Of a DNA stretch of 64,000 nt, positions 11,070-51,959 are shown in pieces. Where the stretch lies: assembly GCF_025231485.1 (NCBI RefSeq), contig NZ_CP104004.1:1-64000 (forward strand), written 5' to 3'. Numbering within the stretch: the first letter of the stretch is position 1; each line of letters opens with the position of its first letter. Source of the stretch: Salinirubellus salinus (GTDB lineage: Archaea > Halobacteriota > Halobacteria > Halobacteriales > Haloarculaceae). The notes under the pieces are model-generated. The model was not told where the DNA came from and did not search any database. It saw only the letters and a list, made by a program, of their open reading frames with translations. Both the position numbers and the translations under genes were made by a program.

Positions 11070-11118
11070 TCCTACGCAACAATTGACCTCCAAATTGAGT
11101 ACACTGTGTTGCGTAGGA
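11070..11118. repeat. 49-bp inverted-repeat element, left copy
   Basis: Perfect 12-bp arms (TCCTACGCAACA and TGTTGCGTAGGA) enclose a 25-base spacer. A second copy with identical arms, the same spacer length and about 14 of 25 spacer bases shared lies at 24962-25010, in the same spacer orientation. The pair brackets the conjugation-like module. Roles that fit are a recombination site, a binding site for a dimeric protein, or a hairpin terminator between convergent genes. Confidence 0.65.
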
Positions 11119-11140
11119 ACAACAGCCCCCGTGACCTGAG

Positions 11141-11902
11141 TCAAGCGCTCGATCGGGGGGAACTCGGGGGACGGTATGGCTCGGGGACGACCACATCGGG
11201 TCCGTGTTCGTCCTCGATGATAGCGACGACAGTCGAACCGCCGTTGCGGACTCGCGGTGGGCCCCACTCGATTTGCACTGTGTCGCCGACGGCAATGTCG
11301 TTCTCAACCGTCCACAGGTATGGTACTTCGAGGACGTACTTCGCTCGCCCCCGATATTCCGTATAGGGTTCGCCGTCGGTTTCGAGTTCGCCGTGGTGGA
11401 TGGTCGTGATGGTCCCGTCGGCGTCGATGAAGATGATATCGATGGGGAAGGTCATATCTCGCATGACGTAGGCACGCTCTTTCTCCTGTTTGTGGCGGAA
11501 GAACATCCCGTGGCCGGGGTCGAGCGACTCGGTTTCTGAGAGCCCGATGGCCAGTTCGCGCCACGTCGCGGCGACGGGGCCCTCGACAAATTCGAGGTAG
11601 CCACCATTTTCGTCGTAGATGGTCGCTGTCGCGTAGTTCGGCGACGTCAGATCAGAGTACATCGTGAATCCGACCCAGCCGACCATCGGCGCGAAGACGA
11701 TGATGAGGACGGCGAGAACTCGGCGGTCTGTGAGGCGGTCGATGATTCGGCGGGCGGGCGTGTCTTCAGGGAATACCGGGAGATCGGTCGGGTCGATGAC
11801 CTCCTCATCCACCGCCGTGTGCCCCGGTCGGTGCTGGTCTTCGTGATCGTGATTGTCGGTGTCTGTGCGGTCTGGAGTGTTTGAATTTGAGTCTGTAGTC
11901 AT
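11141..11902 (-). CDS. membrane-anchored DUF192 protein
   Basis: About 253 residues from the ATG at 11902; the open frame continues upstream but overlaps the neighbouring membrane-protein gene. The order is an acidic Asp/His-rich N-terminus, one membrane helix (VLAVLIIVFAPMVGWVGF), then a DUF192 domain with GHGMFFRHKQEKERAYVMRD, FPIDIIFIDADGTITTIHHG and the C-terminal strand DTVQIEWG. DUF192 proteins are usually secreted or anchored and of unknown function. It is the last gene of the minus-strand set that starts near 15483. Confidence 0.75.
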   Translation of the reverse strand: MTTDSNSNTPDRTDTDNHDHEDQHRPGHTAVDEEVIDPTDLPVFPEDTPARRIIDRLTDRRVLAVLIIVFAPMVGWVGFTMYSDLTSPNYATATIYDENGGYLEFVEGPVAATWRELAIGLSETESLDPGHGMFFRHKQEKERAYVMRDMTFPIDIIFIDADGTITTIHHGELETDGEPYTEYRGRAKYVLEVPYLWTVENDIAVGDTVQIEWGPPRVRNGGSTVVAIIEDEHGPDVVVPEPYRPPSSPRSSA

Positions 11903-11916
11903 GGAGGTGAGACGGT

Positions 11917-12418
11917 CAGAGGAGAATCCATGCGAGCGTGCTGAACACGTTGCCGCCGATACTCGCCCCGACGAGCGTGAGGCCGATGACGATACCCCGC
12001 CGCCCTCGGGCATTGGCGAGCGAGTCGCGGCTGCCGAACGCCCACCAGGTCATCCCGATGATGAAGACGGCGAGGCCAGTGCTTCAAGTGCGAGACTGAG
12101 GGCAGTTGCGAGTTGTGAGATCGAGCTTGCGTGTGAACCCGTGACCGCGCCGTATGGCCAGCCGGCGGGGAGGAATCGAGACCCCAAGATAAACACGAGG
12201 ACGTCGTAGAGGAGGTCGAGGCCTGTGATGGCGACGAACCCGCTTGCGCCGCCGACAGCCATCCCCCGGTAGCGGTCCATCGAGCGGGCGTTCTTTGAGC
12301 CGTAGAACCATCCGATCACGCCGACTACGAGTGCGATGAGCATCCCGTAGCGCCCGAGTACCTCTGCGATCTGGTAGATCCGGAGGAAGGGCTCGACGAA
12401 GCCGCCGACGCTACTCAT
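11917..12418 (-). pseudogene. four-helix membrane protein, frameshifted, internally duplicated
   Basis: The first frame from the ATG at 12418 gives two membrane helices, LIALVVGVIGWFYGSKNARS then FVAITGLDLLYDVLVFILG. It then drifts into a non-hydrophobic end, stopping at 12050. In another frame the same strand gives GLAVFIIGMTWWAFGSRDS, then GIVIGLTLVGASIGGNVFS, stopping at 11917, only 14 bases before the DUF192 start. The two halves share a plan (helix, G-S-charged loop with Asn-Ala-Arg, helix). One missing base near 12080 would fuse them into a protein of about 166 residues. The ATG overlaps the stop of the upstream 761-residue gene. Confidence 0.5.
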
Positions 12419-14700
12419 GCTTTCTTCCCTCCGCCGCGTTTGGTCGTGCGGCGGCGCATTCGCACGTACCAGAACGCGAAGATACCGAGGGCAAGCCACT
12501 CGACGAAGATGAGGGTGTTATTGATCGCCCCGGAGATGTACTCGCCGACGGTGCCGGCGGCTACGAAGGCAACGTCTCCCGGTGGAAGGAGATAGAGGAT
12601 GCTGTCACCCTTGTAGTATGGGTTGTCCGGGCCGGTGTCCCATACATCGCCGTCGTACCTGGCTCGGAGGGTCATCCCGTCCCACGTAACTGAGGCACGC
12701 CCCTCAGAGTCGGTGGTGACGGTCCAGTTCGTTCCGTCTGCTTGGGTGACGGTGATGGTCTTGTTGTCGAGGAAGTTGCTGTTCGTATCGGTCAAGATGA
12801 GTGTGCCCTCGTGCCCTTCGCCGGTGGGTGAGCGATCTATCTCCATCAGCCGAAGGACGGTTGGAGAGTAGGGTTTAGTGGAGACGTTGAGTTGGTCGTC
12901 GAGACTGCCTCCGAAGGGGTTGTCGGCAGTCGCCGTGGCCGTCTCGCCAGTTTCGAGGTCGTTGGAATTGAGGGTCACGACGTACTGCGTGTAGAGTTCG
13001 GTTGGTGCGTCGTTGTCCGTGTCGCTGACACCGGCAGGGAGCGGTGCTCCACCGGGTCGAGCTGCGACTTGCGTATCGACCGTTCGGAGGTAGCCCCAGC
13101 GTTGGGTTTCGACGGAGTCCTGTTGACGTGGGAACTCCATCGTGACGTTGGCGACGCTCGTTTGATAGTGGTAGATGGCTGGCCAGCGGTCGCCTTGTGT
13201 GTGGGTTACGTCGTGTATGTTCGACCCGCTTGCCGTCCGGACTTCGACCGCGTCGTTCCGCGAGACGCCGTAGAAGCGCCACGGCGAGTCGATATTGACG
13301 ACTTTCCCGTTGACGTCAACCTGAATCTGTCTCCACGGGTCGTGGGGAAGGTCCTGGTCGCCCGTCCACGTGATGAGCAGTCGGTCGTCGCCTTCACCGT
13401 CAATGTGAACGACGCTGATGTTGAGATTGGGCGAATCGAAGTCGGTGATCGTCACGGGGACGCTGTATTGTGTCGTGTGAGTGTACGTGCTCGTACTGGA
13501 TTTCGACCATTCGTTGCACCGCGAACTCGTGATGCCCCAGCGACTTTCGACCTCGCTGGTCACCCGGAGCGTGGCGGTGAGGGTGTATTCCCCTCGGGGG
13601 TATTCGAGGGGCATACTCGACGGGTCTTCGATAGCAATCCAGGTTGTGTCACCGAATTTCGCCCAGTCGGATTCACCGCTGAATCCGGGGCGGTCGAGCT
13701 GGACAGAGGTGACTTCCGCACTAGAGTTGATGAGTTCGTACTCGGCCCACTTCGTCCGGTCGTAGTAGTGCCAGTGGGTACTCTTGTGCGTGTGCGTAGA
13801 GTTATCGTGGGTGTGCGTTCGGCGGTGGATGTGCTTTATCTTACACTGGTCATCGTAGCTGTAGTCTGGCGGTGCGATGGCTCGGTGGTCGAACGGGACG
13901 TAGGCTCCCCGCGTGGGGGTTCCGCCCACGACGTAACTATCGCGATACCAGACGCCACCGAAGACGTAGTTGATGCCGACCCACGCATCGCGGACGGTGT
14001 CGAAGTTCGACTGCCCCCACTGTCGGGACATACTCGCGCCATCGCTGGTCGGATAGAGTTCTCGACCATTCACCGTCGGGATGGCGACGCGGTCGGAGTC
14101 TTGGGCGTACCGCGAATACTGGCCGGCGGCGTGGAGGTTTCGGTCTATCGTGTTCGAGTAGTACGCAGTGTGGATGAGCGCTTCCTCTGGGTTTGCCACG
14201 TAGAGTTCCTCCGCATTACGGTCCCACCTGACCTCGGCATTATAGACGGGTTGCCATTCACCGTATTGGCTGGTGACGCGGACGAACCACTTTCCGTCGG
14301 TGCTCGTCGGGCCGTCATAGGTGTTGTTGCCGTGGACGAGGAGGAACTGCGTCTCCTGGTAGGAGGTGATATCGGCATAGCGCGTCCACCGATCTTGATA
14401 CGGAACGGCTTGAAAATCGCTGAGGTCTCTGATGTAGACGTCTTGCGTCGCGACGTATCGGAGTGTCTGTGAGGGTGATTGCGATTTGGCTTGGAGCTCG
14501 ACCGGCCCATATGGATAGTCGTTCTCGAAGTAGCCGTTGTAGGAGATGTCACTCGGGTCGACGTCGTCGTCATTGTTCGCGAGGATACGGTAGGTATCGT
14601 CGTAGGACTTCTCGACACCGGGGTCTGGGGACGGGATTGCGGTGATAGCCCCCAGGCCAGCGGCGACGACGCTGACGGACGCGAGCAGGAGCGATCCCAC
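12415..14700 (-). CDS. large surface-exposed anchored protein of the conjugation-like module
   Basis: At least 761 residues. An N-terminal hydrophobic segment (GSLLLASVSVVAAGLGAITA) is followed by about 690 extracellular-type residues rich in Asp, Thr, Tyr and N-glycosylation sequons, with Ig-like beta strands near the C-terminus (TGETATATADNPFGGSLDDQ). A final membrane helix (INNTLIFVEWLALGIFAFWY) and a basic tail end it. A striking His cluster (KIKHIHRRTHTHDNSTHTHK) lies in the middle. The same frame stays open and coding-like from 14700 back to the TGA at 14947, so the true N-terminus is probably longer: an ATG at 14961 one frame over would join it after one indel in the C run at ~14937-14941. 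It could be a pilus, adhesin or mating-channel subunit; no family is recognised. Confidence 0.6.
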   Translation of the reverse strand: MGSLLLASVSVVAAGLGAITAIPSPDPGVEKSYDDTYRILANNDDDVDPSDISYNGYFENDYPYGPVELQAKSQSPSQTLRYVATQDVYIRDLSDFQAVPYQDRWTRYADITSYQETQFLLVHGNNTYDGPTSTDGKWFVRVTSQYGEWQPVYNAEVRWDRNAEELYVANPEEALIHTAYYSNTIDRNLHAAGQYSRYAQDSDRVAIPTVNGRELYPTSDGASMSRQWGQSNFDTVRDAWVGINYVFGGVWYRDSYVVGGTPTRGAYVPFDHRAIAPPDYSYDDQCKIKHIHRRTHTHDNSTHTHKSTHWHYYDRTKWAEYELINSSAEVTSVQLDRPGFSGESDWAKFGDTTWIAIEDPSSMPLEYPRGEYTLTATLRVTSEVESRWGITSSRCNEWSKSSTSTYTHTTQYSVPVTITDFDSPNLNISVVHIDGEGDDRLLITWTGDQDLPHDPWRQIQVDVNGKVVNIDSPWRFYGVSRNDAVEVRTASGSNIHDVTHTQGDRWPAIYHYQTSVANVTMEFPRQQDSVETQRWGYLRTVDTQVAARPGGAPLPAGVSDTDNDAPTELYTQYVVTLNSNDLETGETATATADNPFGGSLDDQLNVSTKPYSPTVLRLMEIDRSPTGEGHEGTLILTDTNSNFLDNKTITVTQADGTNWTVTTDSEGRASVTWDGMTLRARYDGDVWDTGPDNPYYKGDSILYLLPPGDVAFVAAGTVGEYISGAINNTLIFVEWLALGIFAFWYVRMRRRTTKRGGGKKA

Positions 14701-14946
14701 GAGCGCTATCGTAATGCACGCGTGGATGTGCTGTGCGTACCGCCCGTCGGTGCGCTTGGGCCGGGGGAGACTGAGACATCGCTCGGAGAGTCCGGTTCGG
14801 AATGCGCGACCAGCCGACGTGACACGCCCTCCCAGCGTGGTGTCGTCCTGGTGCGCTCCGGTCCCAGTCCCGGTCTCGGTCTTTGACTCGTCCTCGGTCT
14901 CGGGGTCGACCCGTTGACTGTCAGTATCGGCCCCTTCCGGGGGAAG

Positions 14947-15483
14947 TCAGCCTGAGAGGACATGGTCAAGCAGGCGGATGAAGACGGGGAAGGCGAAGCC
15001 GATAATCGAGATGACGATGCCTGTAGTCGCCATCATGAATCCGCGCCGTCGGTTGTTCAGAGAGGGGCTGATGAAGTACGCGATGATGCCGACAATCATC
15101 GTGATGAGGCCACTCCATTTGAGGAGGGTTCCGACCCAGCCGGGGACCCTGATTGCATCTTTCAAATCGGCAACGAGCGTGCTGAGGTCCGTGCCGGATT
15201 GTAAGGGAAGGATCGAAGCTCGCTGTGCATCCGGGGTCGAAAGGAGTGCGTCCGAGTAGAGTACTTGTGCACGCGTGAGCGTCTGTATGAGGTTGAGGTT
15301 ATTGCCGAGTCGAAACCCGGATCCAAAGCCGAATCCGGGAGGTTGGAGCGGGCTGCAAGCTGCTCGAAGCGACGGGGCGACCGAGGAGGCCACGTCGATG
15401 GCTGTGCTGGGTAGTGAGAGAGGCCCGGCGAGGATGAGCCACCGGCTGGCGACATCGATGGCCTCTGGCTGTAGTGCTATCAT
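14947..15483 (-). CDS. membrane protein with two C-terminal helices
   Basis: About 178 residues from the ATG at 15483 (MIALQPEAIDVASRWLILAG); the frame is also open up to a GTG at 15543. After a helical N-terminal half containing GFGFGSGFRLGNNLNLIQTL, two membrane helices follow: LKWSGLITMIVGIIAYFI and GIVISIIGFAFPVFIRLL. A basic NNRRRG loop separates them. This helix-basic-loop-helix plan resembles the smaller protein at 11917-12418, so the two may be paralogues. It is the first gene of the minus-strand set of the T4SS-like module. Confidence 0.55.
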   Translation of the reverse strand: MIALQPEAIDVASRWLILAGPLSLPSTAIDVASSVAPSLRAACSPLQPPGFGFGSGFRLGNNLNLIQTLTRAQVLYSDALLSTPDAQRASILPLQSGTDLSTLVADLKDAIRVPGWVGTLLKWSGLITMIVGIIAYFISPSLNNRRRGFMMATTGIVISIIGFAFPVFIRLLDHVLSG

Positions 15484-15838
15484 GGGGAGGGTGTTCTCTC
15501 CACGCACCGTCTGGTGTAGCGACGGTGGTGTTTGGTACAGCACGGGAGGCCATCTGCGGCTAAATACCCTCCTCGGTCACATCGGATGTGGTGCTACAGG
15601 GACCACATTGAATGTAGAAATGTGGGCGTGAAAACATCTTAGGGTCGGCTGGCTTACGGATGCCGATGGAAAATCCCGGTCATAACCAGTCGGTCGCTCA
15701 CAATTCGAGCGACTGCCCGCCCACCCGAAATGGGCGCGAGTCTGCGGAGCGTCTCGAGACGCCCGGTGGGACTCGCGACGCTCCGGCGAGCGCCATCCGG
15801 GACTCTGTCCACAATCCAAACAACGGGAACACCCTCCT
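15484..15838. other. divergent promoter region of the conjugation-like module
   Basis: The minus-strand and plus-strand gene sets diverge here. GGTATTTAGCC on the minus strand (~15558-15567) is a TATA-box candidate for the membrane-protein gene. A 95-residue plus-strand frame at 15660 is open but reads Asn/Pro/Arg-rich without conservation signs and overlaps the next small gene; it is not supported. The plus-strand promoter was not located. Confidence 0.35.
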
Positions 15839-15964
15839 ATGCCTGAAATCCAAGTTGATTGGCACTCTCAACAGGAGGCCGACCGCCTACGCGATCTCCG
15901 TGACCGACACGGGATGGTGTGGCGCGGCGTCCTACTCGAGGGGCTAAACACGCAGAAAGTGTAG
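15839..15964 (+). CDS. 41-residue protein with a WRGxLL motif
   Basis: A very short gene, MPEIQVDWHSQQEADRLRDL to stop. Its core, DLRDRHGMVWRGVLLEGLN, matches the second small protein of the operon (16443), which has DSVRVKYGLTWRGMLLKAEQ at the same place. Haloarchaea have many small proteins ending in this type of helix, and the pair are probably paralogues. It may act alone, or it may be the N-terminus of the next protein separated by a frame change, because its TAG overlaps the start region of the downstream frame. Confidence 0.45.
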   Translation: MPEIQVDWHSQQEADRLRDLRDRHGMVWRGVLLEGLNTQKV

Positions 15965-15966
15965 AT

Positions 15967-16443
15967 TTGCTTAAGGCGCTCACAGAGCTCCACCCAGCAC
16001 TCGCGACAACGCTCCCCAACCCGACCGGGGACGGCGCGGCCCCGAGCCGGTCGGAGCTGACCGAGGAGTTGCGAGAGCAGATTCGTGAGCAACAGCGCAT
16101 CCGAGCGACGGCAGAGATCCCACTCTCTGCGTTCGATGATGAAACGGACGCCAACACGCAACGACAGCGTGAGGGCAACATCGAGAGCGACCCTACTCCC
16201 GAAGTAGCGGGCGTGGAGGCACAGCCGTCGCGTGTTGATACCGACCGAACGCGGGCGTACAAGCAGTGGGACGTACAGGAAGCCCGTGCCCTCGAAGACG
16301 GCGAGGTACTCCATCTCGATGCACACGCGGACGTGGGGGATGTGCTTCGCCACGAAGGGCAAGAGGCCGACCACCCTGATGACGAACTCGAGGAGTGGGA
16401 AGTCTATGACGACCATCTGTACGATTATAGCGGGGACTACTGA
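15967..16443 (+). CDS. acidic hypothetical protein
   Basis: About 158 residues from a TTG at 15967; the frame is open upstream to a GTG at 15919. The N-terminal part is helical (LTEELREQIREQQRIRATAE). The rest is very acidic, ending YDDHLYDYSGDY. No membrane segment or known motif. Its stop overlaps the next ATG, so it is translationally coupled within the plus-strand operon. The N-terminal boundary is uncertain because of possible fusion with the preceding 41-residue gene. Confidence 0.45.
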   Translation: MLKALTELHPALATTLPNPTGDGAAPSRSELTEELREQIREQQRIRATAEIPLSAFDDETDANTQRQREGNIESDPTPEVAGVEAQPSRVDTDRTRAYKQWDVQEARALEDGEVLHLDAHADVGDVLRHEGQEADHPDDELEEWEVYDDHLYDYSGDY

Positions 16444-16697
16444 TGGCGGGGAGTACCCGGATCAGAATCACGTCCCAGGAGGAGTACGAATGGCTCGACT
16501 CCGTTCGTGTAAAGTACGGACTCACCTGGCGTGGGATGCTGTTGAAGGCCGAGCAGCGGTTGCTCGCCGCCGAACGTCACTGGCCGGAAGAGTTCCAGAC
16601 ACCAGAGCACCTCCGCGCGGGCGGCGTCGCCGGCGTTGCGAGTGACACCGGTGGTGACAGGGACGCGTCGGCAGAGACCGACGAGGTGGTTGGATGA
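16443..16697 (+). CDS. small cytosolic operon protein
   Basis: An 84-residue protein starting on an overlapping stop/start (TGATG). The first half is structured, with RIRITSQEEYEWLDSVRVKY and GLTWRGMLLKAEQRLLAAER; the tail is disordered and acidic. The first half is paralogous to the 41-residue protein encoded from 15839. Position in front of the VirB3-like gene suggests a regulatory or assembly role, without further support. Confidence 0.5.
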   Translation: MAGSTRIRITSQEEYEWLDSVRVKYGLTWRGMLLKAEQRLLAAERHWPEEFQTPEHLRAGGVAGVASDTGGDRDASAETDEVVG

Positions 16698-17209
16698 GCA
16701 AGGACGTCCCGATGGCGTCGCATTTGCTTTCCTCGAAAGTGTTCGGTGTCTCGGCCCGGAAGCTTGCCGAGTCGTTGGGTCCGCCGCTCATCGTCCCAAT
16801 CATCCTCTACGCGATTGGATTACCGCTCCTGGTCACGGCGCCGTTCGTGATTCTCGGGGCCATCGCTGGACTCGTTATCTACACACGGACGCCGGAGGGA
16901 CAACGCCCGATTCGGTATGCAGCAGCGATGGTTCGCCACTTCCGAGGGCGGACAGAGTACCTCTGGAAGCCCCCCGAGGCTGGCGACCACGATATCGCTT
17001 CGCGTGAGCCCTTCGAGGGCTGGATCACGGAGCGGCCAGACCCGGCTGGGAGTGGCAGTGTGAGTGAGAACGAGGGCGGGAACGAGAGTTACCGCTCGGA
17101 TACTGTGGACAGAGAATTGACGGTGAATACGGATTCGGATGCGGATGCTGGGCCCGCTTCGGAGTGCCCCGCTGTGACGACAACGCTCGGAGAGACATAC
17201 AATGACTGA
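16694..17209 (+). CDS. VirB3/PrgI-like inner-membrane protein
   Basis: A 171-residue protein. A short N-terminal amphipathic stretch is followed by two adjacent membrane helices (LIVPIILYAIGLPLLVTAPF and VILGAIAGLVIYT). A basic segment then leads to a long acidic cytoplasmic tail. VirB3/PrgI proteins have this two-helix N-terminal plan and sit directly upstream of VirB4, as here. It overlaps both neighbours by a few bases. The assignment rests on topology and gene order rather than residue identity. Confidence 0.55.
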   Translation: MSKDVPMASHLLSSKVFGVSARKLAESLGPPLIVPIILYAIGLPLLVTAPFVILGAIAGLVIYTRTPEGQRPIRYAAAMVRHFRGRTEYLWKPPEAGDHDIASREPFEGWITERPDPAGSGSVSENEGGNESYRSDTVDRELTVNTDSDADAGPASECPAVTTTLGETYND

Positions 17210-18779
17210 ATACGAAGACGCCGGTTCGACGCTGGACCTCATGGACTTCAAGAATGTCCGTGACGGCGGTGTCGTAGAAACGCCAACGACGTACGCGATG
17301 CTCATGCGGGTCCAGCCCCGCGAGTGGCTCATCCTCTCGGAGGAACGCCGGGAGAGCCTCTACCTGTCGTTCATGACGTTCCTTCGCGGGCTACAGTTCC
17401 CGACGCAGATTCTCTCGGTGACGACTGCGTACGACCCTGAGCCCTACCTGGGACGTTTTGAGAACGTCGACCGCCCGCTCATCGGGACGAGCGAGGATGG
17501 GGGTGACGAAGAGGACGCGCTCGACGAGTCGCCGCTGATGGATTACGGGCGACAGTATCACGCTGAGTGGCTGCGGAACGTCGTCGACGTCGCGGAGATT
17601 CGTGACCGCGATTTCTACGTCGCGGTCTCGGTCGCGAAGGATGGAGAGGCCGACGATGGCGTCATGGCCCAACTTCGTGGGTTCCTGCCGGGTGGGAACG
17701 ATGTCGAGACAGACAGCGAAACGGAAGCCGCGTGTCTCGAAGAAGTGAAAGCCCGCGCCCAGCGTGTGGCCTCGAAACTCCCGCAAACGCAGGTGAAAAC
17801 AGAACTGCTCGACACGCGAGCGTCTGTCTTGGAAGTCCTCTATGAGGTCTATCACGGACAGAAGCCACCGATCTCGTTCACGCAGGGTAACTACACGCGC
17901 CCGGACGACCGCGCTCAGGAAGTTGCTGACGCGGCCTACGATGTCGAGGCGGCGGCCCAGGCGGAAGCGAACGAGGATGGCGACTTCGAGTTTGACCGTA
18001 TCTCCGAGGAGTACCCCGAGATTGAGATTGAGTCGGATGCCGACCCCCTCGCGGCCGTCGGTGATGGTGGCTATGCCCACCCCGACTTCGTCGAACGGGT
18101 GGCGAGCTCGCGTATCCTTCGCTGGTACGCACGGAATATCGGGCCGGTTGGCCACGGTCCCCGCCCGGTCGTCCCGCGAGCCATCTACGCGGGAGTCAGC
18201 GTCGGCCTGCTGAGTTTCCTCCTCGGGGCCGTGGCGCTGGGGGGATTCGTGTGGTCGATGGAAGTTCCCCAACGCGGGTCGGACATCTACTGGCTGGCTC
18301 GAATGGCCTCGTTCGCGACCGGTGCGGTGAGCCTCCCTGCCTTCCTGTTGAGCCTCGTCGTTCTCTTCCCTTCGGGACGAAAGACGAAGGCGCTCTCGCT
18401 GGTCGGCCTCGGCGTGGTCGGCTATGCGATCAGCCTGTTCCTTGAGGCGTACCCCTATGAGTGGGACTCGAATGCGGCTGTGACGACGCTCACGGTCGAA
18501 GTGTACGCGGCTGGACTGGCCGCGTTACTGCTCTGTGTCGCCCTCGCAGTGCGGTCCCGGCAGAAGGTGGACCTCTCGAATCTCACCACGCTGCCTGTCG
18601 GTGGCGTCGACGGCGAGATGGACCTTGACCCTCTCACCGACGGCGGCTGTACAGAGTTAGACACTGACGAAACGAACGGCGACGCGGTTGCTGACGACCC
18701 GCTCACGGCGGCAGACGCGGACACGGACACGGACGCGGAAGTGGACACGACGGACGAGCGAAACGAGGCAGACCAATGA
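17202..18779 (+). CDS. VirB4-N-like protein with four membrane helices
   Basis: A 525-residue protein. The first ~240 residues resemble the N-terminal, non-ATPase part of VirB4/TraC-type proteins: KNVRDGGVVETPTTYAMLM, LILSEERRESLYLSFMTFLR and the segment QVKTELLDTRASVLEVLYEV. An acidic linker then leads to four membrane helices, at about 330-352, 370-390, 397-415 and 430-450. A disordered Asp/Thr tail ends it. It overlaps the VirB4 ATPase gene by four bases. A separately encoded, membrane-tethered VirB4-N is unusual and probably docks the ATPase at the channel. Confidence 0.55.
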   Translation: MTEYEDAGSTLDLMDFKNVRDGGVVETPTTYAMLMRVQPREWLILSEERRESLYLSFMTFLRGLQFPTQILSVTTAYDPEPYLGRFENVDRPLIGTSEDGGDEEDALDESPLMDYGRQYHAEWLRNVVDVAEIRDRDFYVAVSVAKDGEADDGVMAQLRGFLPGGNDVETDSETEAACLEEVKARAQRVASKLPQTQVKTELLDTRASVLEVLYEVYHGQKPPISFTQGNYTRPDDRAQEVADAAYDVEAAAQAEANEDGDFEFDRISEEYPEIEIESDADPLAAVGDGGYAHPDFVERVASSRILRWYARNIGPVGHGPRPVVPRAIYAGVSVGLLSFLLGAVALGGFVWSMEVPQRGSDIYWLARMASFATGAVSLPAFLLSLVVLFPSGRKTKALSLVGLGVVGYAISLFLEAYPYEWDSNAAVTTLTVEVYAAGLAALLLCVALAVRSRQKVDLSNLTTLPVGGVDGEMDLDPLTDGGCTELDTDETNGDAVADDPLTAADADTDTDAEVDTTDERNEADQ

Positions 18780-21097
18780 ATCCCCTACACAGACTCCTCG
18801 GGCGAGACAGTACCGAGGATGACGAGACTGAACGGATCCCGATTGACGACCTCACGGGCGAGGAGACGCAACTCTCACTCGAGTATCTGAATCTGCTCGA
18901 CCGGGACGCAACTCGGAAGAACATCGAGTGGGCGGCCTACCAGTTACAGGCTGAAGAACTCCCGTTGGTCTCAGCCATCGAATCCCTCGAAGAGCGCGGG
19001 AAACTCGACAAGAAGCTCGTCGCGCCCCGTGCGATGGAGCGCCACCCCGAGTTCCAGATTCGCAACGAGAAGGTGACGCAGATTATGACCGTCACGGGCT
19101 TTCCCCGGAAGGTCAATCTCGGCTGGCTCGTCCCGCTGACGATTGCGGACGTCGACCTCCGACTGTCGTTCCACATCACGCCGCGTAACCCCGCGAAGAC
19201 TCGCCAACAACTCCAGCGACGCTACACGCAAACGACGACGTCGCTGGCGCTCAAGAGTCGCAAAGGCCGGACGGACACTCACCAAGACGAACTCGAACGC
19301 GAAGACCTCCTGCGCATCCTTCAGGACGTGGTTCGGGGGACGACGAAGGTGTACGACATCGCGATCTACATGGAGTTGATCGCGGATTCCCACGAGGAAC
19401 TCGACGAGATGCGCGAGCGCGTCGACACCATCCTCGCCGAACAGGACGTCGAGACGACCGTCCTTCGCCACCAGCAAATCGAGGGTAACGGGACGATTGT
19501 CCCGCTCGCGACGGACACTATCAAGAACGTCCACCCGATTCAGTTGGAAGCGCTGGCGACGCTGTTCAACCTCGTCGAGCCGCCGATTTACGACGCGGAC
19601 GGCATCATGATGGGGTTCGACGACACGAGTCGGCCGGTCATCATCGACCGCTATGCACACTCCGGGTACGGAATGGTCATCTCGGGGAAGACGGGGTCGG
19701 GGAAGTCCTACGCCCGGAAGCTCGAGATTTACCGCCGCTTGCTGGCTGACCCGACAGTCCAGTGTGTACTTTTCGACCCAGCGGGTGACGACTATCCGTT
19801 CTTCGCGGAGAAGCTGCGCGGGGAAGTCATTCGCTTCGGCGGCGCACAGAAGGTGAACCCGATGGATATCGAACCGCCGTCGGGCGACCTCGGTGCGGCC
19901 GAGGATACCTACCCACTGACGGTTCGCTCGGTCGTGGAGATGCTGAACACGCACTACGAAGACCGGGGCGGCCTCCCCGCTGCGGAAGAGGGAATGCTGA
20001 TCCAGGCGGTCCACTACGCGTATCTCTCGAAGGGGATTGTCCTCGGTGAGTACGAGACGTACGCGAACGAATCGCCTATCATCGACGATCTCATCCGGGG
20101 CGTCGAGGTCATCACTCACGGTGGTTATGAGGCGGCGCTCGAGGAGGGCCTCGTCGACGAGGCCGAGTTCGAGCACTTCTGTGAGATGGGCGTGCTCTCT
20201 GAGGAGGGCGAGCCAATCACGGACGCCGGGATTTCGGTCCCGATGGCGGTGTTCACGCCCTCGGAAAAGCACCAGGAGGTCGCGAAGTCCCTGGAACCCA
20301 AATTTGAGTCGTTCAAGCCAGGCGGTATCAACTACAACTTGAACGGGACGACGAACCTCGAGTTGAACTCGCGGCTGGTCGTGATGGACATGAGTTCCTT
20401 CGCAGACACGGGCGAGATGCCGCTCATCCTCCACGCGATGTTGCAGTGGGCGTACCTCGAGGCCAAGCGGTCGCCGAATCGCTTCGACGTGACGTTCGAC
20501 GAGGCCCACTATCTGTTGGGTCGGGAGTCGACGCGGGATCTCATCAACCTCTTCATCCGCCACGCCAGGCACTACGATGCCGGGCTGACGCTGATGAGTC
20601 AGACCGCACACGAGTTCCTGCGGACGGAAGAGCGCCGCGAGATTTACGAGAACTGTGACATCAAGATGCTGTTCTATGCGCAGTCGGTCTCGGACGCGAC
20701 GAAGGAGTACTTCGACCTCTCGCCGGCTGAAGTGAAGTACCTACAGTCAGCCCCGCGAGGGCAGGAATCCGGGTACTCTGGCTGTCTGTTGTCGACGACG
20801 AAACACGGTCGTCGCCGGCTCGAGGTTCACTCTGGTGACTTTGAGCACTACATGATCGACAACAACCTCGACCCGTGGACGTACATCGAGGAGCGCGAGG
20901 GAACGCGCCGTCCCGAAGATGCCGGGTCGGTCGAGTCCGAGCTGGACCTGACTGATATGCCGGATATCACGAACCGCGAGTTGGATATGCAACTCACTGG
21001 TGAGTTCGCACAAGACCGGGCCGCATCGGAACCGTCGCCGGGGTCGGACTCCGTCGATGGCTCTGTATCAGATGTCCCGGCGTCTGGTGAGCGCTGA
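18776..21097 (+). CDS. VirB4/TraC-like conjugation ATPase
   Basis: A 773-residue ATPase of the HerA/VirB4 class. Walker A is GKTGSGKSYARK with Lys310; Walker B is VTFDEAHYLLG with Asp575-Glu576. An Arg-containing sensor region follows (NLFIRHARHYDAGLTLMSQT). Residues ~60-230 form an N-terminal domain with TGFPRKVNLGWLVPLTIADV, typical of haloarchaeal VirB4. It powers assembly or DNA transfer through a type IV secretion channel at the membrane. The start and stop overlap the neighbours by 4 and 1 bases, so these genes form a tight operon. Confidence 0.88.
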   Translation: MNPLHRLLGRDSTEDDETERIPIDDLTGEETQLSLEYLNLLDRDATRKNIEWAAYQLQAEELPLVSAIESLEERGKLDKKLVAPRAMERHPEFQIRNEKVTQIMTVTGFPRKVNLGWLVPLTIADVDLRLSFHITPRNPAKTRQQLQRRYTQTTTSLALKSRKGRTDTHQDELEREDLLRILQDVVRGTTKVYDIAIYMELIADSHEELDEMRERVDTILAEQDVETTVLRHQQIEGNGTIVPLATDTIKNVHPIQLEALATLFNLVEPPIYDADGIMMGFDDTSRPVIIDRYAHSGYGMVISGKTGSGKSYARKLEIYRRLLADPTVQCVLFDPAGDDYPFFAEKLRGEVIRFGGAQKVNPMDIEPPSGDLGAAEDTYPLTVRSVVEMLNTHYEDRGGLPAAEEGMLIQAVHYAYLSKGIVLGEYETYANESPIIDDLIRGVEVITHGGYEAALEEGLVDEAEFEHFCEMGVLSEEGEPITDAGISVPMAVFTPSEKHQEVAKSLEPKFESFKPGGINYNLNGTTNLELNSRLVVMDMSSFADTGEMPLILHAMLQWAYLEAKRSPNRFDVTFDEAHYLLGRESTRDLINLFIRHARHYDAGLTLMSQTAHEFLRTEERREIYENCDIKMLFYAQSVSDATKEYFDLSPAEVKYLQSAPRGQESGYSGCLLSTTKHGRRRLEVHSGDFEHYMIDNNLDPWTYIEEREGTRRPEDAGSVESELDLTDMPDITNRELDMQLTGEFAQDRAASEPSPGSDSVDGSVSDVPASGER

Positions 21098-22974
21098 TGG
21101 ACCCCACGCTGCTGGCTCTGATGGTTCCGCAGCTCGCGGTGGGGTCGTTGGTGCCGCTCCAGTTGCTCGGTCCCGATTCGGTCGCAGAGGCAATCTGGGG
21201 ATGGCTCATTGATACGCTCAATTCGGCAGCGTCGGAGATGTCGTCGGCGCTCACTGACGAGCTCCTCAAGGGCCTACTGAAGGTCCCGAACCCACACGGT
21301 TCGACGGCGGCGAACGGAGCGTGGACTGGGATATTCGAGATTTCACTAGTCTTGCTCCCGATCATGATCGCGTTGGCGCTCATCGCGTGGCCGTTCAGTG
21401 AGGACCGGGAGTCCGGGTTGATGGACCTCGTGGTCCGGACGGTGATGGTGCTGTTGTTCATCGGGGTTTCCCAGCCTGCCTGGGGATTCGCGATTGACGC
21501 GACGAACGCCGTCACGATGGCGATTCTGAACCTCGACCCCGACCCGGGGGTGGCGAACTATGGGTACGGAAACGGTCTCGTCGGCGCACCCACGACGTTC
21601 GCCACGTGGACGCTGAAGTTCATCGTCTCGATAGTCGCCGCGATTCTTGCGGTGCTGTCGCTCCTACTGGCGTTGTTCTTCCTGCTACTGCGCTGGTTCA
21701 TGATTTGGATGGCCTACATCGGGACACCGTTTTTCGCGGTCGTCTGGTTCGTGGGCCGTGGTCCCTTCAAGTCGGTGGGGAGCGTCGGAGCGACGTTCAT
21801 GCGGATGGGCGTCTTCGCGCTGTTAGCCGGCCCGATTATCGCTATCATCGTGTTGGCCTTCCAAGTCATCGAACACGGTGGTATCCTCCAGGCCACGGGC
21901 GGGAGTTCCGAGAGCGCCGGGGCGATGATTCAGAATGTCGCTGGCGAAACCGGCCTGATCTTCGCCGAACTCGCGTTGATGTTGCTCTTCCCAGTCGTGC
22001 TCATCGTGGCGATCTGGAAGCTCATCTCGTGGGCGGGCCAGCCCATCGGGGTTGGTGAGGCGGCGGCAGTCGCGACGATGGCTGTCACGGCCGCTGTCGG
22101 CGGCGCCGTCGCTGGCGCGACCGGTGGTGCGGCTGCTGGTGGGTCCGGCGGTGCGGCCTCCGGTGGCGCATCAGGCGGTGCATCGAGCGGTAGCGCCGCT
22201 GGCGGTTCGAGTGCGGCGGCCTCGGGCTCGGGAGCGAGCGCGGGGACTGCCGGGAGTGCGAACGTCGGGGCCGGCGGGTCCGGCCTCTCGAGCCGCATGA
22301 CAGCGCGGGCGAAAGGCGCTGTCAGCAGCGTCAAGCAGAGCGCACACCAGCAGGCGACGAAACGTATCGGCCACTATGGAACGTCGGGGAAGTTGGATTC
22401 GGCACAGGCCTCGTTGTCTGAGGCGCAAACCGATCACAAAACCGCGTCGTCACAGGCGAGGTTCATCCAGAACGCGATGGTGAACGAGGAAATGGACATG
22501 GCCGAGGCCAAGAAACAGGGCTTCCTCGACGCCGAGCCGATGGAGAACCAGATGCCGGAGTTCAAGACCGACCCCGATACCCTCGACCGGAAGATGACGT
22601 ATATGGGGACGGATGGAGCGAGTCGGTCGGTCAACCTCTCGCGGAAGTTCCGGGCGGCCAAGGCCGACCAGCAGGATGCCAGCGAGCGCATCACGACCGC
22701 CGAGAGCGACATCGCGAAGAACGCTGCACGGAACCGCCGTGTGGAGACCGGCAAGAAGGGGGTGAGAACCGGGAAGAAAGCAGGGACGATCACGGCGAAG
22801 ACTGGCGCGGCCGCGATGATTGGCGGGGTTGGTGGCAACTCCTACCTCGCGTATTCCGCGGGCCGCCGGGCTGGTGGGCCGATGATCGGCTCGAATGGCT
22901 CGGAGTTCGGGAAAGCAGCGGGCGGCCAGAGCAAGCCACCCAAGCCCGACGATGGAAACGGGCCGGAGGTATAG
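21097..22974 (+). CDS. VirB6/TrbL-like polytopic channel protein
   Basis: A 625-residue protein. About seven membrane helices fall in residues 85-345 (among them ISLVLLPIMIALALIAW, IVSIVAAILAVLSLLLALFF and LALMLLFPVVLIVAIWKLI). An extraordinary Ala/Gly/Ser linker follows (~345-395), then a basic, helical cytoplasmic tail containing LSSRMTARAKGAVSSVKQSA and a coiled coil around DSAQASLSEAQTDHKTASSQ. Many helices followed by a long soluble tail fit VirB6/TrbL channel subunits. It starts on the last base of the VirB4 stop. Confidence 0.65.
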   Translation: MDPTLLALMVPQLAVGSLVPLQLLGPDSVAEAIWGWLIDTLNSAASEMSSALTDELLKGLLKVPNPHGSTAANGAWTGIFEISLVLLPIMIALALIAWPFSEDRESGLMDLVVRTVMVLLFIGVSQPAWGFAIDATNAVTMAILNLDPDPGVANYGYGNGLVGAPTTFATWTLKFIVSIVAAILAVLSLLLALFFLLLRWFMIWMAYIGTPFFAVVWFVGRGPFKSVGSVGATFMRMGVFALLAGPIIAIIVLAFQVIEHGGILQATGGSSESAGAMIQNVAGETGLIFAELALMLLFPVVLIVAIWKLISWAGQPIGVGEAAAVATMAVTAAVGGAVAGATGGAAAGGSGGAASGGASGGASSGSAAGGSSAAASGSGASAGTAGSANVGAGGSGLSSRMTARAKGAVSSVKQSAHQQATKRIGHYGTSGKLDSAQASLSEAQTDHKTASSQARFIQNAMVNEEMDMAEAKKQGFLDAEPMENQMPEFKTDPDTLDRKMTYMGTDGASRSVNLSRKFRAAKADQQDASERITTAESDIAKNAARNRRVETGKKGVRTGKKAGTITAKTGAAAMIGGVGGNSYLAYSAGRRAGGPMIGSNGSEFGKAAGGQSKPPKPDDGNGPEV

Positions 22975-23029
22975 ATTCAGCACTGAGTCGAGAGGGCTCT
23001 GAGCCGCTCTGTCTTCGCTCTCGCGGAGA

Positions 23030-23037
23030 TTTAAATA
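23030..23037 (+). promoter_or_regulatory. TATA-box candidate for the membrane AAA+ gene
   Basis: TTTAAATA in a GC-rich setting, in the 262-base gap after the VirB6-like gene. Transcription from here would give a leader of about 175 bases before the ATG at 23237, long for a haloarchaeon, so a small upstream ORF or a structured leader is possible. The rest of the gap has no further gene. Confidence 0.4.
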
Positions 23038-23236
23038 CGGGTATGGGGCTAAGAGGTGTGTGATTCAGAGGGACCGTCCCGCGATGCTGTGAGGGCCACA
23101 GACGGACCGTGGATTCATCTCGCGTAATCGCAGTCGGCCCTCTCGTCGATTTACACCATACAAAATCGCATCACCTCCGACCCCGCCTTCGGGCGACGCA
23201 TGGCCACTCACCCATCGACATCACCAACAACAAACC

Positions 23237-24871
23237 ATGTCACCACCATATTACGGGGACCTCGCCACTGGAACTGTGGCAATCATCATCCTCGACCTTG
23301 CATACGTCTACGTCCGCCCCCGCTTACCGACCCCCGACGGCGGTCGTCGCGAGCGCGCACTCGAAGCGGCCATCGTCGCACTTCTCGTCTCGGGCTGGGG
23401 ATTGCTCGCGTATCCGGCTTTGTTCACTCCAGCGTGGCACGGAGCAGCGGGAATCGCGATGTACGGACTTCTCACGGTCCCTATCGTGGGCGTCCTCTTC
23501 TTCCTCGGGAAGCCGCTCATCCCGCCGATTGGAGCTGGCGGTGTAGTATTCATCCTGATGGTGATCGGACTCGCATTCCTGAATATGCTCCTCCCGGGGA
23601 CCAACGGGGGGAGAGAGCTCTCGAATCTCCTGTCCGCACCGTTCCTGCTCGCTATCCCGGTTGGCCTCTTCATCGGCGTGTACGTTGTAGGGATCCTCCA
23701 ACAGGAGATTGCTGAGGACGACGAGCCAGAGTATGACCCAATCGGCTTCGCAGGGGGACCGACCTCTGAGACGCCGGACCCGAACAGCACGGGCAGTCCG
23801 TCCTCGAACACCTCTCCCTCGTCCCACACGCCGAATCCGCCGAAGCGCGTCTCGATTGACGAAGTCCCACAAGACCTTCGAGAACAATTCCAGCTCGGGG
23901 ATTCGTCTCCCACAGAACGAATTCCGCTGGAGGAGTACCGCTATGACTGGCGATATTCAGAGACATCGTTCGACACTATCGGCGGCTACTACGACCTGAA
24001 GGACGCCCTCCACGAAGACGTGCTCAAGCCACTCCGAGCGACACAGCGAGGAGATGATCGCTACTCACGATTCGGTATCGAACCGGAGCGCGGCATCCTC
24101 CTGTATGGGCCTCCGGGGACAGGGAAGACGATGTTCGCGAGAGCGCTCGCCGGAGAACTAAACATCCCGTTCGTGGAGCTGTCGCCGGCGGACGTGACGA
24201 GTATGTGGGTCAACGAAAGCAGCGACCAGGTCAAGACGCTGTTCAGCGAGGCCGACGAGATCGGGCAGTGTATCATCTTCCTCGACGAGGCGGAACATCT
24301 CTTCGGCGCTCGCGAACACACCGCCAAGAGTGCCCACGCCGAAGACCGGAAAGTCACGAGTGAGTTCCTTGCGCAACTCACGCGGGATGACCGCGAGGCG
24401 ATTGTGGTCTCGGCGACGAACCGACCGGGCGATATCGACCGGGCGATTCTCCGACCGGGTCGCCTGACGGCACACTTCGAGGTTGGCCTCCCCGACGAAG
24501 AGGCCCGCCACGCGATTCTCAAGACCCATCTCAAGGACATACCCTCGAGAGTGTCGGGCGATGAGTTCGCGGCGCTGGCCCGTCACACGGCTGGGTTGAC
24601 TGGCGCTGATCTCGCCAATCTCGTCGGACAGGCTCGCCGGAGTGCGGCACACCGGGACGCGAGCGCGGTCACCCGCGAGGACTTCCCCTCAGAGGACGCT
24701 CTCGAGGAGCTGTCGGCAGAGTTAGCAGTGGCGAACGAGACGGGCGAACTCCCAGACGCCGACGACGGGTCGGATACTGAGACTACCGACTCGCCGGAAG
24801 CGAAAACGGGCGTGCGAGCGGATGATGAGGGTGATTCCGGACCCGACGGCCCTGCTCGCGGCTACCAGTAG
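23237..24871 (+). CDS. membrane-anchored AAA+ ATPase
   Basis: A 544-residue protein. Four or five N-terminal membrane helices (ATGTVAIIILDLAYVY to IPVGLFIGVYVVGILQ) precede a Pro/Ser-rich linker. The AAA+ domain begins at ~230 (ETSFDTIGGYYDLKDALHED). Walker A is YGPPGTGKTM with Lys297; Walker B is CIIFLDEAEHLFG; sensor 1 and the arginine-finger region are SATNRPGDIDRAILRPGRL. The helical lid includes TGADLANLVGQARRSAAHRD. It resembles the Cdc48/FtsH class without a protease domain. Within this module it may remodel the channel or unfold substrates. It has its own promoter region. Confidence 0.75.
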   Translation: MSPPYYGDLATGTVAIIILDLAYVYVRPRLPTPDGGRRERALEAAIVALLVSGWGLLAYPALFTPAWHGAAGIAMYGLLTVPIVGVLFFLGKPLIPPIGAGGVVFILMVIGLAFLNMLLPGTNGGRELSNLLSAPFLLAIPVGLFIGVYVVGILQQEIAEDDEPEYDPIGFAGGPTSETPDPNSTGSPSSNTSPSSHTPNPPKRVSIDEVPQDLREQFQLGDSSPTERIPLEEYRYDWRYSETSFDTIGGYYDLKDALHEDVLKPLRATQRGDDRYSRFGIEPERGILLYGPPGTGKTMFARALAGELNIPFVELSPADVTSMWVNESSDQVKTLFSEADEIGQCIIFLDEAEHLFGAREHTAKSAHAEDRKVTSEFLAQLTRDDREAIVVSATNRPGDIDRAILRPGRLTAHFEVGLPDEEARHAILKTHLKDIPSRVSGDEFAALARHTAGLTGADLANLVGQARRSAAHRDASAVTREDFPSEDALEELSAELAVANETGELPDADDGSDTETTDSPEAKTGVRADDEGDSGPDGPARGYQ

Positions 24872-24961
24872 GGAAGACGCTCTCTCACGAGGCCGGGGAC
24901 TCGGAATGGCGGTGACGGGTTTTCTGTGGCGTAGCAGCGCGAGGGCGGCCAGGGGGTTTGG

Positions 24962-25010
24962 TCCTACGCAACAACTGAACCGGCTACTGACTTCACTCTG
25001 TTGCGTAGGA
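24962..25010. repeat. 49-bp inverted-repeat element, right copy
   Basis: Same perfect 12-bp arms (TCCTACGCAACA / TGTTGCGTAGGA) and 25-base spacer length as the copy at 11070-11118. It lies 90 bases after the AAA+ gene, in a 459-base gap (24872-25330) that otherwise holds only the rpa promoter near its end. Confidence 0.65.
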
Positions 25011-25330: not shown

Positions 25331-26411
25331 ATGAACACCCTCCGTGAAGATGCCCAACTACTCCACGAGCAGGTGGCCCCCCACCTCTCGGACGACCAAG
25401 CAGATGACTACGACGTCGACGCTCTCGAGACACTGTTCGACTCCTACGTGAACACGTATCGAGTGCCGAGAAACGCGGCCTTCGACAGCGTCCGTAACCA
25501 CGTCCTCAAAGAGGCGGATGTGGATACGGAAGCGTTCTGGGCCTCACTCCGAGGCGGCGACCAGGGAACGACCGAGGAACCGCTTCCGCTCTCTGAATGC
25601 ACCACCGACGGCGCATGGGTGACGGTGCGAGCGAAAATTGTCGAACTCTGGGACCCCCGTGAGGACTCGATCCACCAGGTTGGTCTGGTCGGTGACGAGA
25701 GCGGCCGGATGAAGTTCGTCGCGTGGACGAAGTCGAACCCCCCAGTCCTCGAGGAGGACACGACGTACACGTTCAAGGACGTCGTCGTCGATGAGTACGA
25801 CGGCAATTACTCGCTGAAGATTAATTCGCGGAGCGAAATCATCGAGCACGCGAGGGACAGTCCGGAGGCCATCGGCACGGTCGGGACGATGACGACCGTC
25901 TATGAGGGTGTGTTCGTTGCGATACAGAGTCAGTCGGGCCTCATCAAGCGATGCACAGATCCGGAATGTACGCGCGTGATTCAGCAGGGCGAGTGTAGCG
26001 AGCACGGCCCGAACGAGGGTGAGTTCGACCTCCGAATCAAGGGCGTCCTCGACGATGGGGAGTCCGTTCAGGAGTGTCTGTTCACCGCTGGAATGACGGA
26101 AGTCGTGACGGGCATCGACCTAGACGGCGATGGAGATGGCGTCGGACGCGCTCGACCTCACTGTGGTTGAGCGGCGACTGACCGAGATGCTCATCGGCCG
26201 CCGATTCACGGTCGAGGGGCCGCTTCTCGGTCGGTATCTCCTTGTCGACGAGGTGACGGATTCATCGAACCGGGCGTTCGCTCAGGGCTACCACGATGCG
26301 GTTGATGACCTGCTTTCTGAGTACGGCTATTATGGGCCGGGCCTGACGGCCGAGAACATCGAGGATCTCCCGCAGACCTATGACGCGCCGGTCGCGGCAG
26401 GAGGGAACTAA
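25331..26411 (+). pseudogene. rpa: RPA-family single-stranded DNA-binding protein, frameshifted
   Basis: This is a haloarchaeal RPA: a helical N-terminus (DYDVDALETLFDSYVNTYRV), an OB fold (AWVTVRAKIVELWDPREDSI to FVAWTKSNPPVLEEDTTYTF), and a second OB fold containing the zinc site CTDPECTRV with GECSEHG. The first frame loses the family pattern after TEVVTGIDLD and stops at 26170. The conserved end (AMEMASDALDLTVVERRLTE to LGRYLLVDEV) continues in another frame to 26411. A one-base excess or two-base loss near 26120 explains it. RPA protects ssDNA in replication and repair. The RPA-associated protein follows after 5 bases, as in known haloarchaeal rpa operons. Confidence 0.75.
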
Positions 26412-29552: not shown

Positions 29553-30983
29553 ATGGGTGATGGATCGCCGGATATAGATCATCAGACGGAACAGTCTGGT
29601 TCTATAGACGAAGTTCCGAGAGATGGAGGGAGCAATTCTGACGGGTCCGACACCAGTCAATCTACGTTCGGTGATTCGGGGAGCGGCATCTCGATCATGG
29701 ATGAACTCCAATCCGAATCTGTCGAAACCGTCTTCGAGAACAAGGATTTGGTTCGCCCCGACACCATCATCGACGAAGATCGAATCGTTGGTCGTGATGA
29801 CCAGCTGAAGACCGTCATCACGAATCTAAAGCCCGCACTCCAGGGTCAGGGGATTCCGGATATGTTGTTGACCGGACCGTCTGGAACCGGGAAGTCGCTG
29901 ATTATCCACGCGGTCTGTAAGAAAATCGTTGAGCTGAGCGAGGCTCAGGGAATGCGGTTCGGTGTGTTTTCGATAAACTGCGAGGGACCCGGCACCACCA
30001 GTCGCGCTGTCTATCGTCTGATCCAGGAAGCGACGATGAATATCGAGGAGGAACCTGGTGTTCCCGAAAGTGGTGTCTCGACAGACCAGAAACTCGAGCG
30101 CCTCTGGGAAATCATGCGCGAGCACTACGATGGCGTCATCTTCGTTCTCGACGAAATCGACATGCTTGATGGTCCATACTCTGAACCAGAGTACAATTCG
30201 CTTCTCTACCAGTTGTCGCGAGCTCGCGATCTCGGTCGCTTTGACGGTCCCGTCTCTGTGACTGCGATTACCAACTACGTTGATTTCATGTCTGATCTCA
30301 ACAGCCGCGCAAATAGCTCGTTCAATCCTGACGAGGTTTTCTTCGAGGATTACGACGCGACCCAGCTACGACATATCCTCCGAAACCGCGAAGACGCATT
30401 CAAACAAGAAGCTCTCGCGAGAGACGTCGTTCCGCTCGTGGCTGCGTTCGGCTCGCAAACCCATGGTGATGCACGGAAGGCTATCGACCTGCTTCGGTGG
30501 TCCGGCGAATTAGCCGATAAACAGGGGGATGAACGGGTATTGGAAACCCACGTCCGGACTGCTCAGGAACGATACGACTCCGATCGCAAATTGCGACACA
30601 TCGGCGGGCTGTCGACTCAAAAGAAGCTCTGTATTTTCGCCGTGGCCGCAACGGACTATTATTCAAATGTGAGTGTCGACTGGATCCCCGCTGGCCCTTC
30701 CTACAGTCTCTATCAGTACGTCTGTGATGTCCTCGATACGGACTCCTATGGCCGGGAAACCTTCGTCAACCACGTCACTGAGCAGGCAACCTACGGCATC
30801 CTCGAGTTTGACCGACGTGGTCGTGGGAGGGGCAAAGGTATCCACATGCACTTTGATCTCGCCGAGGACCCTGAGTCAATCATGGAACGAATACTGGAGG
30901 ATGACCGCTTCTCAGAGTTAGAGCGCGAAGAGGAGATGATGCGATCGGTCGCCAAGTCGCAGATGAACTCGTTCCTGAACTGA
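29553..30983 (+). CDS. orc1: Orc1/Cdc6 replication initiator
   Basis: A 476-residue AAA+ initiator. Walker A is GPSGTGKSL with Lys114; Walker B is FVLDEIDML with Asp200-Glu201. Sensor 1 is AITNYVDFM, and the helical lid includes FGSQTHGDARKAIDLLRWSG. A C-terminal winged helix begins near LSTQKKLCIFAVAATDYYS. The N-terminal ~50 residues are disordered and acidic. TTTATA at 29523-29528 places the transcript start at the ATG. ORB-like arrays on both sides strongly suggest that it recognises these repeats and starts replication here. Confidence 0.93.
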   Translation: MGDGSPDIDHQTEQSGSIDEVPRDGGSNSDGSDTSQSTFGDSGSGISIMDELQSESVETVFENKDLVRPDTIIDEDRIVGRDDQLKTVITNLKPALQGQGIPDMLLTGPSGTGKSLIIHAVCKKIVELSEAQGMRFGVFSINCEGPGTTSRAVYRLIQEATMNIEEEPGVPESGVSTDQKLERLWEIMREHYDGVIFVLDEIDMLDGPYSEPEYNSLLYQLSRARDLGRFDGPVSVTAITNYVDFMSDLNSRANSSFNPDEVFFEDYDATQLRHILRNREDAFKQEALARDVVPLVAAFGSQTHGDARKAIDLLRWSGELADKQGDERVLETHVRTAQERYDSDRKLRHIGGLSTQKKLCIFAVAATDYYSNVSVDWIPAGPSYSLYQYVCDVLDTDSYGRETFVNHVTEQATYGILEFDRRGRGRGKGIHMHFDLAEDPESIMERILEDDRFSELEREEEMMRSVAKSQMNSFLN

Positions 30984-34797: not shown

Positions 34798-34953
34798 ACT
34801 CGTGTGGATGCCCACAAACCCGATAAGCCGCGGCGTGTCGCTTCCGCGTTTCAGGGAACGCGAACGGGGCGTACCCAATCAGGGTAAAGTCTCGGGAATC
34901 CTCTGTTTAGAGACTGTTTCCGAGAACGGTTCCAGAATCGAGAGCCACCTAAT

Positions 34954-34996
34954 ATTAACCAACAGTTCCACCCCTTGCATCGGAATGTTGGTTAAT
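34954..34996. promoter_or_regulatory. operator-like inverted repeat between divergent repair genes
   Basis: ATTAACCAAC at 34954-34963 and GTTGGTTAAT at 34987-34996 are perfect 10-bp inverted arms 23 bases apart. A related half-site (CGGAATGTTAAT, 35031-35042) repeats the sequence before the right arm (CGGAATGTTGGTTAAT) with a deletion. The site lies between the PolB2 operon (leftward) and the gene at 35072 (rightward), so it could co-regulate both. Confidence 0.55.
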
Positions 34997-35071
34997 AGAA
35001 CACGGCCGTAGAGGCTCCGATTCTCTCGCTCGGAATGTTAATGCTTGACACCACGTTGTAAGAGGTGCTCA

Positions 35072-48969: not shown

Positions 48970-49056
48970 TATGAGGACGTGACTCTGAGTTCACAGCATT
49001 CCCACTTATATTGTGTGACGGGATACTGGATATCCGAGTCAGGGTAAAGAAGGGAG

Positions 49057-51957: not shown

Positions 51958-51959
51958 GG

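Follow-up and report, generated by a model that had tools for sequence, protein, structure and literature searches.

On either side of a T4SS-like gene module of the haloarchaeon Salinirubellus salinus stand two 49-bp elements built of short inverted arms, which raises the question of what such a pair of sites does. The window containing them covers the first 64 kb of C2, a contig of 249,332 bp. A first-pass annotation had proposed that the pair specially frames a conjugation-like module holding the whole T4SS-like set, and had named recombination sites, insulators, regulator sites and transcription terminators as candidates. Judged from sequence comparison, the elements are probably operators for a small DNA-binding protein, from an unnamed family, that would control its own gene and act element-wide; the guess of regulator sites is thus the best supported of the four, by position, co-occurrence and conservation.

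The paired elements and the module between them

The original description of the pair was borne out by the sequence, from which twin 49-bp elements were read in one orientation, separated by 13,892 bp, with identical arms and 25-nt spacers that differ at 11/25 positions (Table 1). In NZ_CP026311, the S. rubrum plasmid, the counterpart of element 1 occupies the corresponding place, at 190278, and element 2 lies ~315 bp upstream of the replication factor A gene. This gene is split into 25331-26110 and 26127-26408, unlike its relatives, and the two-frame reading is a frameshift or assembly error. The window also contains a lone element with different arms (class b), and the source genome yielded no gene for a class b protein.

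Table 1. Sites and neighbouring genes on contig C2 (positions in the window are those of C2)
Feature	Position	Strand	Remarks
Class a element 1	11070..11118	+	TCCTACGCAACA-25 nt-TGTTGCGTAGGA; 22 bp 3' of DUF192 gene
Class a element 2	24962..25010	+	TCCTACGCAACA-25 nt-TGTTGCGTAGGA; AAA ATPase gene on one side, replication factor A gene on the other
All class a sites on C2 (starts)	11070, 24962, 81467, 91186, 92458, 105892, 109152		spacer 24 nt at 81467 and 91186, otherwise 25 nt
Lone class b element	34953..34997	.	TATTAACCAAC-23-GTTGGTTAATA; ~75 bp upstream of ORF 33847-34878 (-)
DUF192 gene	11141..12013	-	element 1 on its 3' side
DUF87/HerA-like (VirB4-type) ATPase, T4SS-like module	18776..21097	+	
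AAA ATPase	23237..24871	+	3' end comes before element 2
Replication factor A gene	25331..26408	+	downstream of element 2; two frames
1450-aa neighbour of VirB2-like gene	135095-139402		
VirB2-like gene	139720-140058		far outside element pair

Positions 1-56240 of C2 recur at 193093-249332 with small indels, and since the first ~56 kb are thereby repeated at the contig end, C2 is a circular plasmid of ~193.09 kb whose end repeat was left untrimmed by the assembler. When at most 2 mismatches were allowed over both arms together, seven distinct class a sites with 24-25 nt spacers were found on this ~193-kb plasmid, and none on the chromosome contig. A reversed control pattern gave 0 matches; with shuffled arms (n=30), for which as many as 6 mismatches were tolerated, 27 controls gave 0 matches and the remaining three 1, 4 and 1, so class a arms are more frequent on the plasmid than chance provides. 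The 25-nt form at the limit of 2 mismatches occurred in 3/391 genomes of the sampled class, on a single contig in each, and all seven places recur on NZ_CP026311, matched by spacer and neighbouring genes. Other genes observed in the window, on the same plasmid, include two different Orc1/Cdc6-like genes (29553-30983 and 36433-37461), a family B DNA polymerase gene (31389-33542) and, at 45040-55897, helicase, methylase and AAA ATPase genes matching Hma, DISARM-like and DUF499/DUF1156 defence models, which likely form a defence island.

The idea of a specially framed module fared poorly in these comparisons. Five further class a copies lie outside the window, and the pair does not enclose the whole T4SS-like set, given that the VirB2-like gene and its 1450-aa neighbour are located elsewhere on the plasmid; in the comparison plasmids W02 and W04 these two genes adjoin DUF192, unlike in C2. 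Flanking of the module was not kept in other plasmids either: the DUF192-side copy was seen only in C2 and in the S. rubrum plasmid, which resembles it closely, and was absent from all four other DUF192-bearing plasmids scanned whole (W02, W04, W06 and W08). The ATPase-side element was present in 8 of 11 plasmids compared (C2, W01-W05, W10 and W11), some with other arms, where the place is taken loosely as the gene neighbours differ in W03 and W05. A bracket or boundary of the conjugation module was ruled out by the seven scattered copies, the external VirB2-like gene and the unkept DUF192-side place.

Arm classes and the conservation of the sites

The arms were collected by a de novo scan of eleven plasmids followed by mismatch scans, which recovered the variable arms of W04, W06 and W09 that exact 9-mers had missed. 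In the records of W06 and W11 the sites recur at fixed offsets of ~126.9 and ~132.6 kb, which suggests that these records are terminally redundant like C2, and for this reason distinct sites alone were counted in them. Class a arms (TCCTACGCAAC) are carried by C2, W01, W02 and W05, a' arms (TCCTACGYWAC) by W04, W06, W08 and W09, and a'' arms (TCCTACAYWAC) by W03; further classes are b (TTAACCAAC), c (GTTACCCCAC) and d (CTTACCAAAC), to which later loci added CTTATGTAAC and the virus phiCh1 added CTTATCAAAC. All classes share the pattern YTA-NNN-MAC, and the arms of classes a, a' and a'' are spaced 24-27 or 15-16 nt apart, two settings that differ by about one helical turn.

Conservation between genera is concentrated in the arms, of which 171/176 positions are kept in eight site pairs, compared with 152/214 spacer and 619/960 flank positions; the earlier proposal that the arms are under selection is thereby supported. 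In a' elements, arm positions 8 and 9 are complementary in 8/25 and 11/25 cases, where 13.0 and 12.9 would be expected if the two arms were independent. Because these positions vary independently between the arms, the latter look like protein half-sites and not like the sides of a stem.

The partner gene family and its sites

In each arm class, one copy stops just short of a small gene's start codon, and the genes so preceded constitute one family. The family gene of the source plasmid (C2 81517, 161 aa) lies outside the window, 2 bp behind an element copy, and the viral members are PhiH1_250, PhiCh1_230 and ChaoS9_240, called uncharacterized in the available text of PMC6210493 and PMC6471424, or in the records. 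A profile of 11 members matched in 150/194 Halobacteria genomes. Eight of the 11 scanned members matched PHROG 22659 and six matched Pfam DUF6788 (PF20586) at E<=1, both of them families without known function. The class d protein scored 32.5 bits against DUF6788, above the curated cut-off of 27.2; the class b and c proteins fell below that model on their own, the class a protein of the source plasmid had no DUF6788 match, and no ParB/KorB or helix-turn-helix Pfam match was obtained for the family. IMG/VR protein searches returned no family relatives. A structural model of ChaoS9_240, built from two sequences and weak (pLDDT 67, pTM 0.27), contains a long helix at 17-55 and a three-stranded sheet at 80-107, the latter being our guess for the likely DNA-binding part; Foldseek returned nothing for this model at E<=0.001, and no solved structure of a relative was found.

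Under a rule of arms of at least 9 with at most 1 mismatch, an element preceded 51 of 59 unique family genes. In the controls, the rule was satisfied by 29 of 400 stretches taken at random and by 1 of 59 upstream regions after shuffling. Two of the 51 (L263 and L266) look like chance matches, in three genes counted as misses (L151, L153 and L254) an imperfect element can be made out by eye, and in phiH1 the element precedes the first gene of the operon. In 46 of the 47 genes with class-typed arms, 0-19 bp separate the end of the self-site from the start codon. In phiH1, where PhiH1_245 is the first gene downstream of the annotated T8 start, the element (31630-31679) reaches up to the beginning of that gene and spans both the T8 transcription start at 31672 and a TTTAATA box ~24 bp before it. 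Sequence next to the distal arm is 71% AT in 46 self-sites versus 47% in 65 dispersed sites, each taken at its better end, a comparison independent of the list of TATA-like words, which was picked after the sites had been viewed. With these 46/47 positions, the phiH1 T8 start and the AT-rich box, an element overlapping the promoter of the family gene itself was found, as expected of an autoregulated plasmid or phage repressor-operator system.

The dispersed copies are more varied in position. For 35 relations between a site and the gene starting beyond it, with gene starts entered by hand, the distance is <=80 bp in 18, 81-200 bp in 7 and >200 bp in 10; these relations leave out the lone class b site W03 22939 and the sites between convergent genes (W03 33977, W11 49135 and one in phiCh1). 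Of the further phiCh1 copies, one precedes parA by 72 bp and another is flanked by the 3' ends of imm and repH. Many class a sites are followed by a conserved GTTTGTC box with a CCCYC/GAGGG repeat; the box stands 28-29 nt from the ATG and may be a weak TATA box. The motif CGTTTGTC[TG]CCCYCGnnnCGGTGGAGGG, with this repeat, is conserved 28-29 nt before many start codons, at the C2 81467-109201 sites, at C2 119343 (-) and in W01, W02 and W04, whether or not an element lies upstream.

Correspondence between arm core and protein subfamily was assessed in two ways. Mapped on the protein tree, the 8 core states require 7 changes, which is the minimum; the agreement is partly automatic and weak alone because each self-site is linked to its gene. 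The tests with dispersed sites of classes b and c, whose counts both include self-sites, are stronger. Class c sites occurred in 12/12 genomes with a c gene among the matches listed (to about 1e-26) versus 4/182 others, which may hold unlisted genes (Fisher p=4e-16). Class b sites averaged 9.3 (3-16) in 10 genomes with the gene versus 0.63 (0-3) in 19 without it (p=4e-6). Where a plasmid has several arm classes, genes of those classes are present as well, namely a', b and d in W08, a' and c in W09, and a'' and c in W03.

Class b is also found apart from its gene. Among IMG/VR virus records with class b sites, which may be fragments, a family gene was present in just 2/32, and C2, W02 and W03 likewise carry lone class b sites while having no class b gene. 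Because most of the viral records and these three plasmids are without a class b gene, another factor may read class b sites; such sites can persist with no binder close by, or a different binder exists, or the host provides it. In the IMG/VR loci L184-L233, from several haloarchaeal virus contigs showing no family gene, class b elements were observed ~58-68 bp upstream or just 3' of orc1-like genes.

Proposed function, alternatives and known systems

In the mechanism we propose, the two inverted half-sites (YTA-NNN-MACA) would be bound as a pair by the small plasmid-encoded protein, here the product of the gene at C2 81517. On its self-site the protein would shut off its own promoter, since the copy before that gene encloses its TATA-like box. 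Through the remaining copies, the two in the window included, its action would extend to a set of genes on the plasmid, given that these copies are intergenic and mostly upstream of promoters; in some genetic elements the targets may be replication and partition genes. The family protein as binder, its self-repression and the sign of its action elsewhere are all inferred from the sequence pattern. Against this operator reading stand the class b sites seen without their gene, and also the 10 of 35 relations beyond 200 bp and the sites between convergent genes, the last two of which fall outside simple promoter control.

The main alternative, kept alive, as is a replication role, by sites beside orc1 or parA and at 3' ends, is a partition role, alone or added. 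Taken alone, and then unlikely, it would make the elements centromere-like sites and the family protein an adaptor for a ParA ATPase, with control of its own gene a side effect. In several class a plasmids, as in phiH1, phiCh1 and ChaoS9, at most a few kb separate a ParA gene from the family gene, the phiCh1 site upstream of parA and the viral sites near parA or orc1-like genes fit, and so do intergenic dispersed sites, some of them distant from promoters, with an arm type particular to each plasmid; however, W03, W05, W10 and W11 have no close ParA, and promoters hold most sites. The proximity of class b, c and d genes to orc1 genes on W03, W08, W10 and W11, together with viral sites upstream or just 3' of orc1-like genes, would also suit binding by another plasmid factor, such as Orc1/Cdc6 at replication origin boxes or a plasmid TFB. 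This is quite improbable, as Orc1 is far from the class a gene (C2 29706 versus 81517), the arm class tracks the DUF6788-like subfamily, and the element abuts the start codon of that very gene.

Two of the original guesses are still less credible. Site-specific recombination at the edges of a mobile module would account for inverted arms and for two direct copies around the module, but the spacers, where strand exchange would take place, have diverged; the identical central crossover region of tyrosine-recombinase (dif/att) sites was not found, seven copies are present on the plasmid, and their places are kept across genera. With 11/25 spacer differences, recombination sites were rejected as very improbable. 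Intrinsic terminators or RNA hairpins at operon ends, for which the location of the window's two copies 3' of the DUF192 and AAA genes would speak, are hardly more plausible: the two variable arm positions are without stem covariation (8/25 and 11/25 versus 13.0 and 12.9), most copies lie 5' of genes and just a few at 3' ends, spacing clusters at 24-27 or 15-16 nt, and no T tract was seen in the sequence. Many copies at simple 3' ends, as expected of an ordinary terminator, were not seen, and this candidate was rejected on the lack of arm covariation.

Returning to operators of a self-controlled protein, a wider version may be put forward as a tentative and rather doubtful extension, in which the family protein would be both element-wide gene regulator and partition adaptor, with a fixed operator frame and an exchangeable three-base specificity core. 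If so, the core would set plasmid identity (incompatibility), and co-resident viruses and plasmids would read or ignore each other's sites.

Literature searches by arm sequence showed no haloarchaeal work among the matches listed, those on haloarchaeal repeats and operators did not list the element, and none was found on DUF6788. Halovirus HF2 also has repeated intergenic promoter-side sequences, thought to hold sites for viral factors, but in the available text of PMC8707807 these repeats are the promoters themselves, 58 and 29 bp long, without paired arms and with no binder named. The Rep repressor-operator system of phiH and phiCh1 is located in the same viral region, where a small repressor controls back-to-back promoters (PMC4284463, as far as its available text goes). 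RepR/ORF48 is, however, a different protein from PhiH1_250 and PhiCh1_230, which are called uncharacterized or hypothetical; the phiH 'per' gene of that account might be related to the family.

The present comparisons offer a candidate function, open to test, for a family found in 150/194 Halobacteria genomes and also in phiH1, phiCh1 and ChaoS9, which are model viruses, together with an arm-to-protein code of three variable bases per half-site, and an entry point to the self-control, and perhaps the segregation, of haloarchaeal plasmids and viruses. The system would resemble KorB/KorA in having a single plasmid-encoded DNA-binding protein, many dispersed operators, autoregulation and a possible tie to partition, and several dispersed sites, as regulators of the KorB/ParB type have, were indeed found on the plasmid. 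It departs from them in that the family protein is unrelated, short, archaeal and without a Pfam helix-turn-helix or ParB match, and in that its arms vary by a three-base core. In the available text of PMC11790492, KorB, KorA and similar proteins are described as global regulators of bacterial conjugative plasmids.
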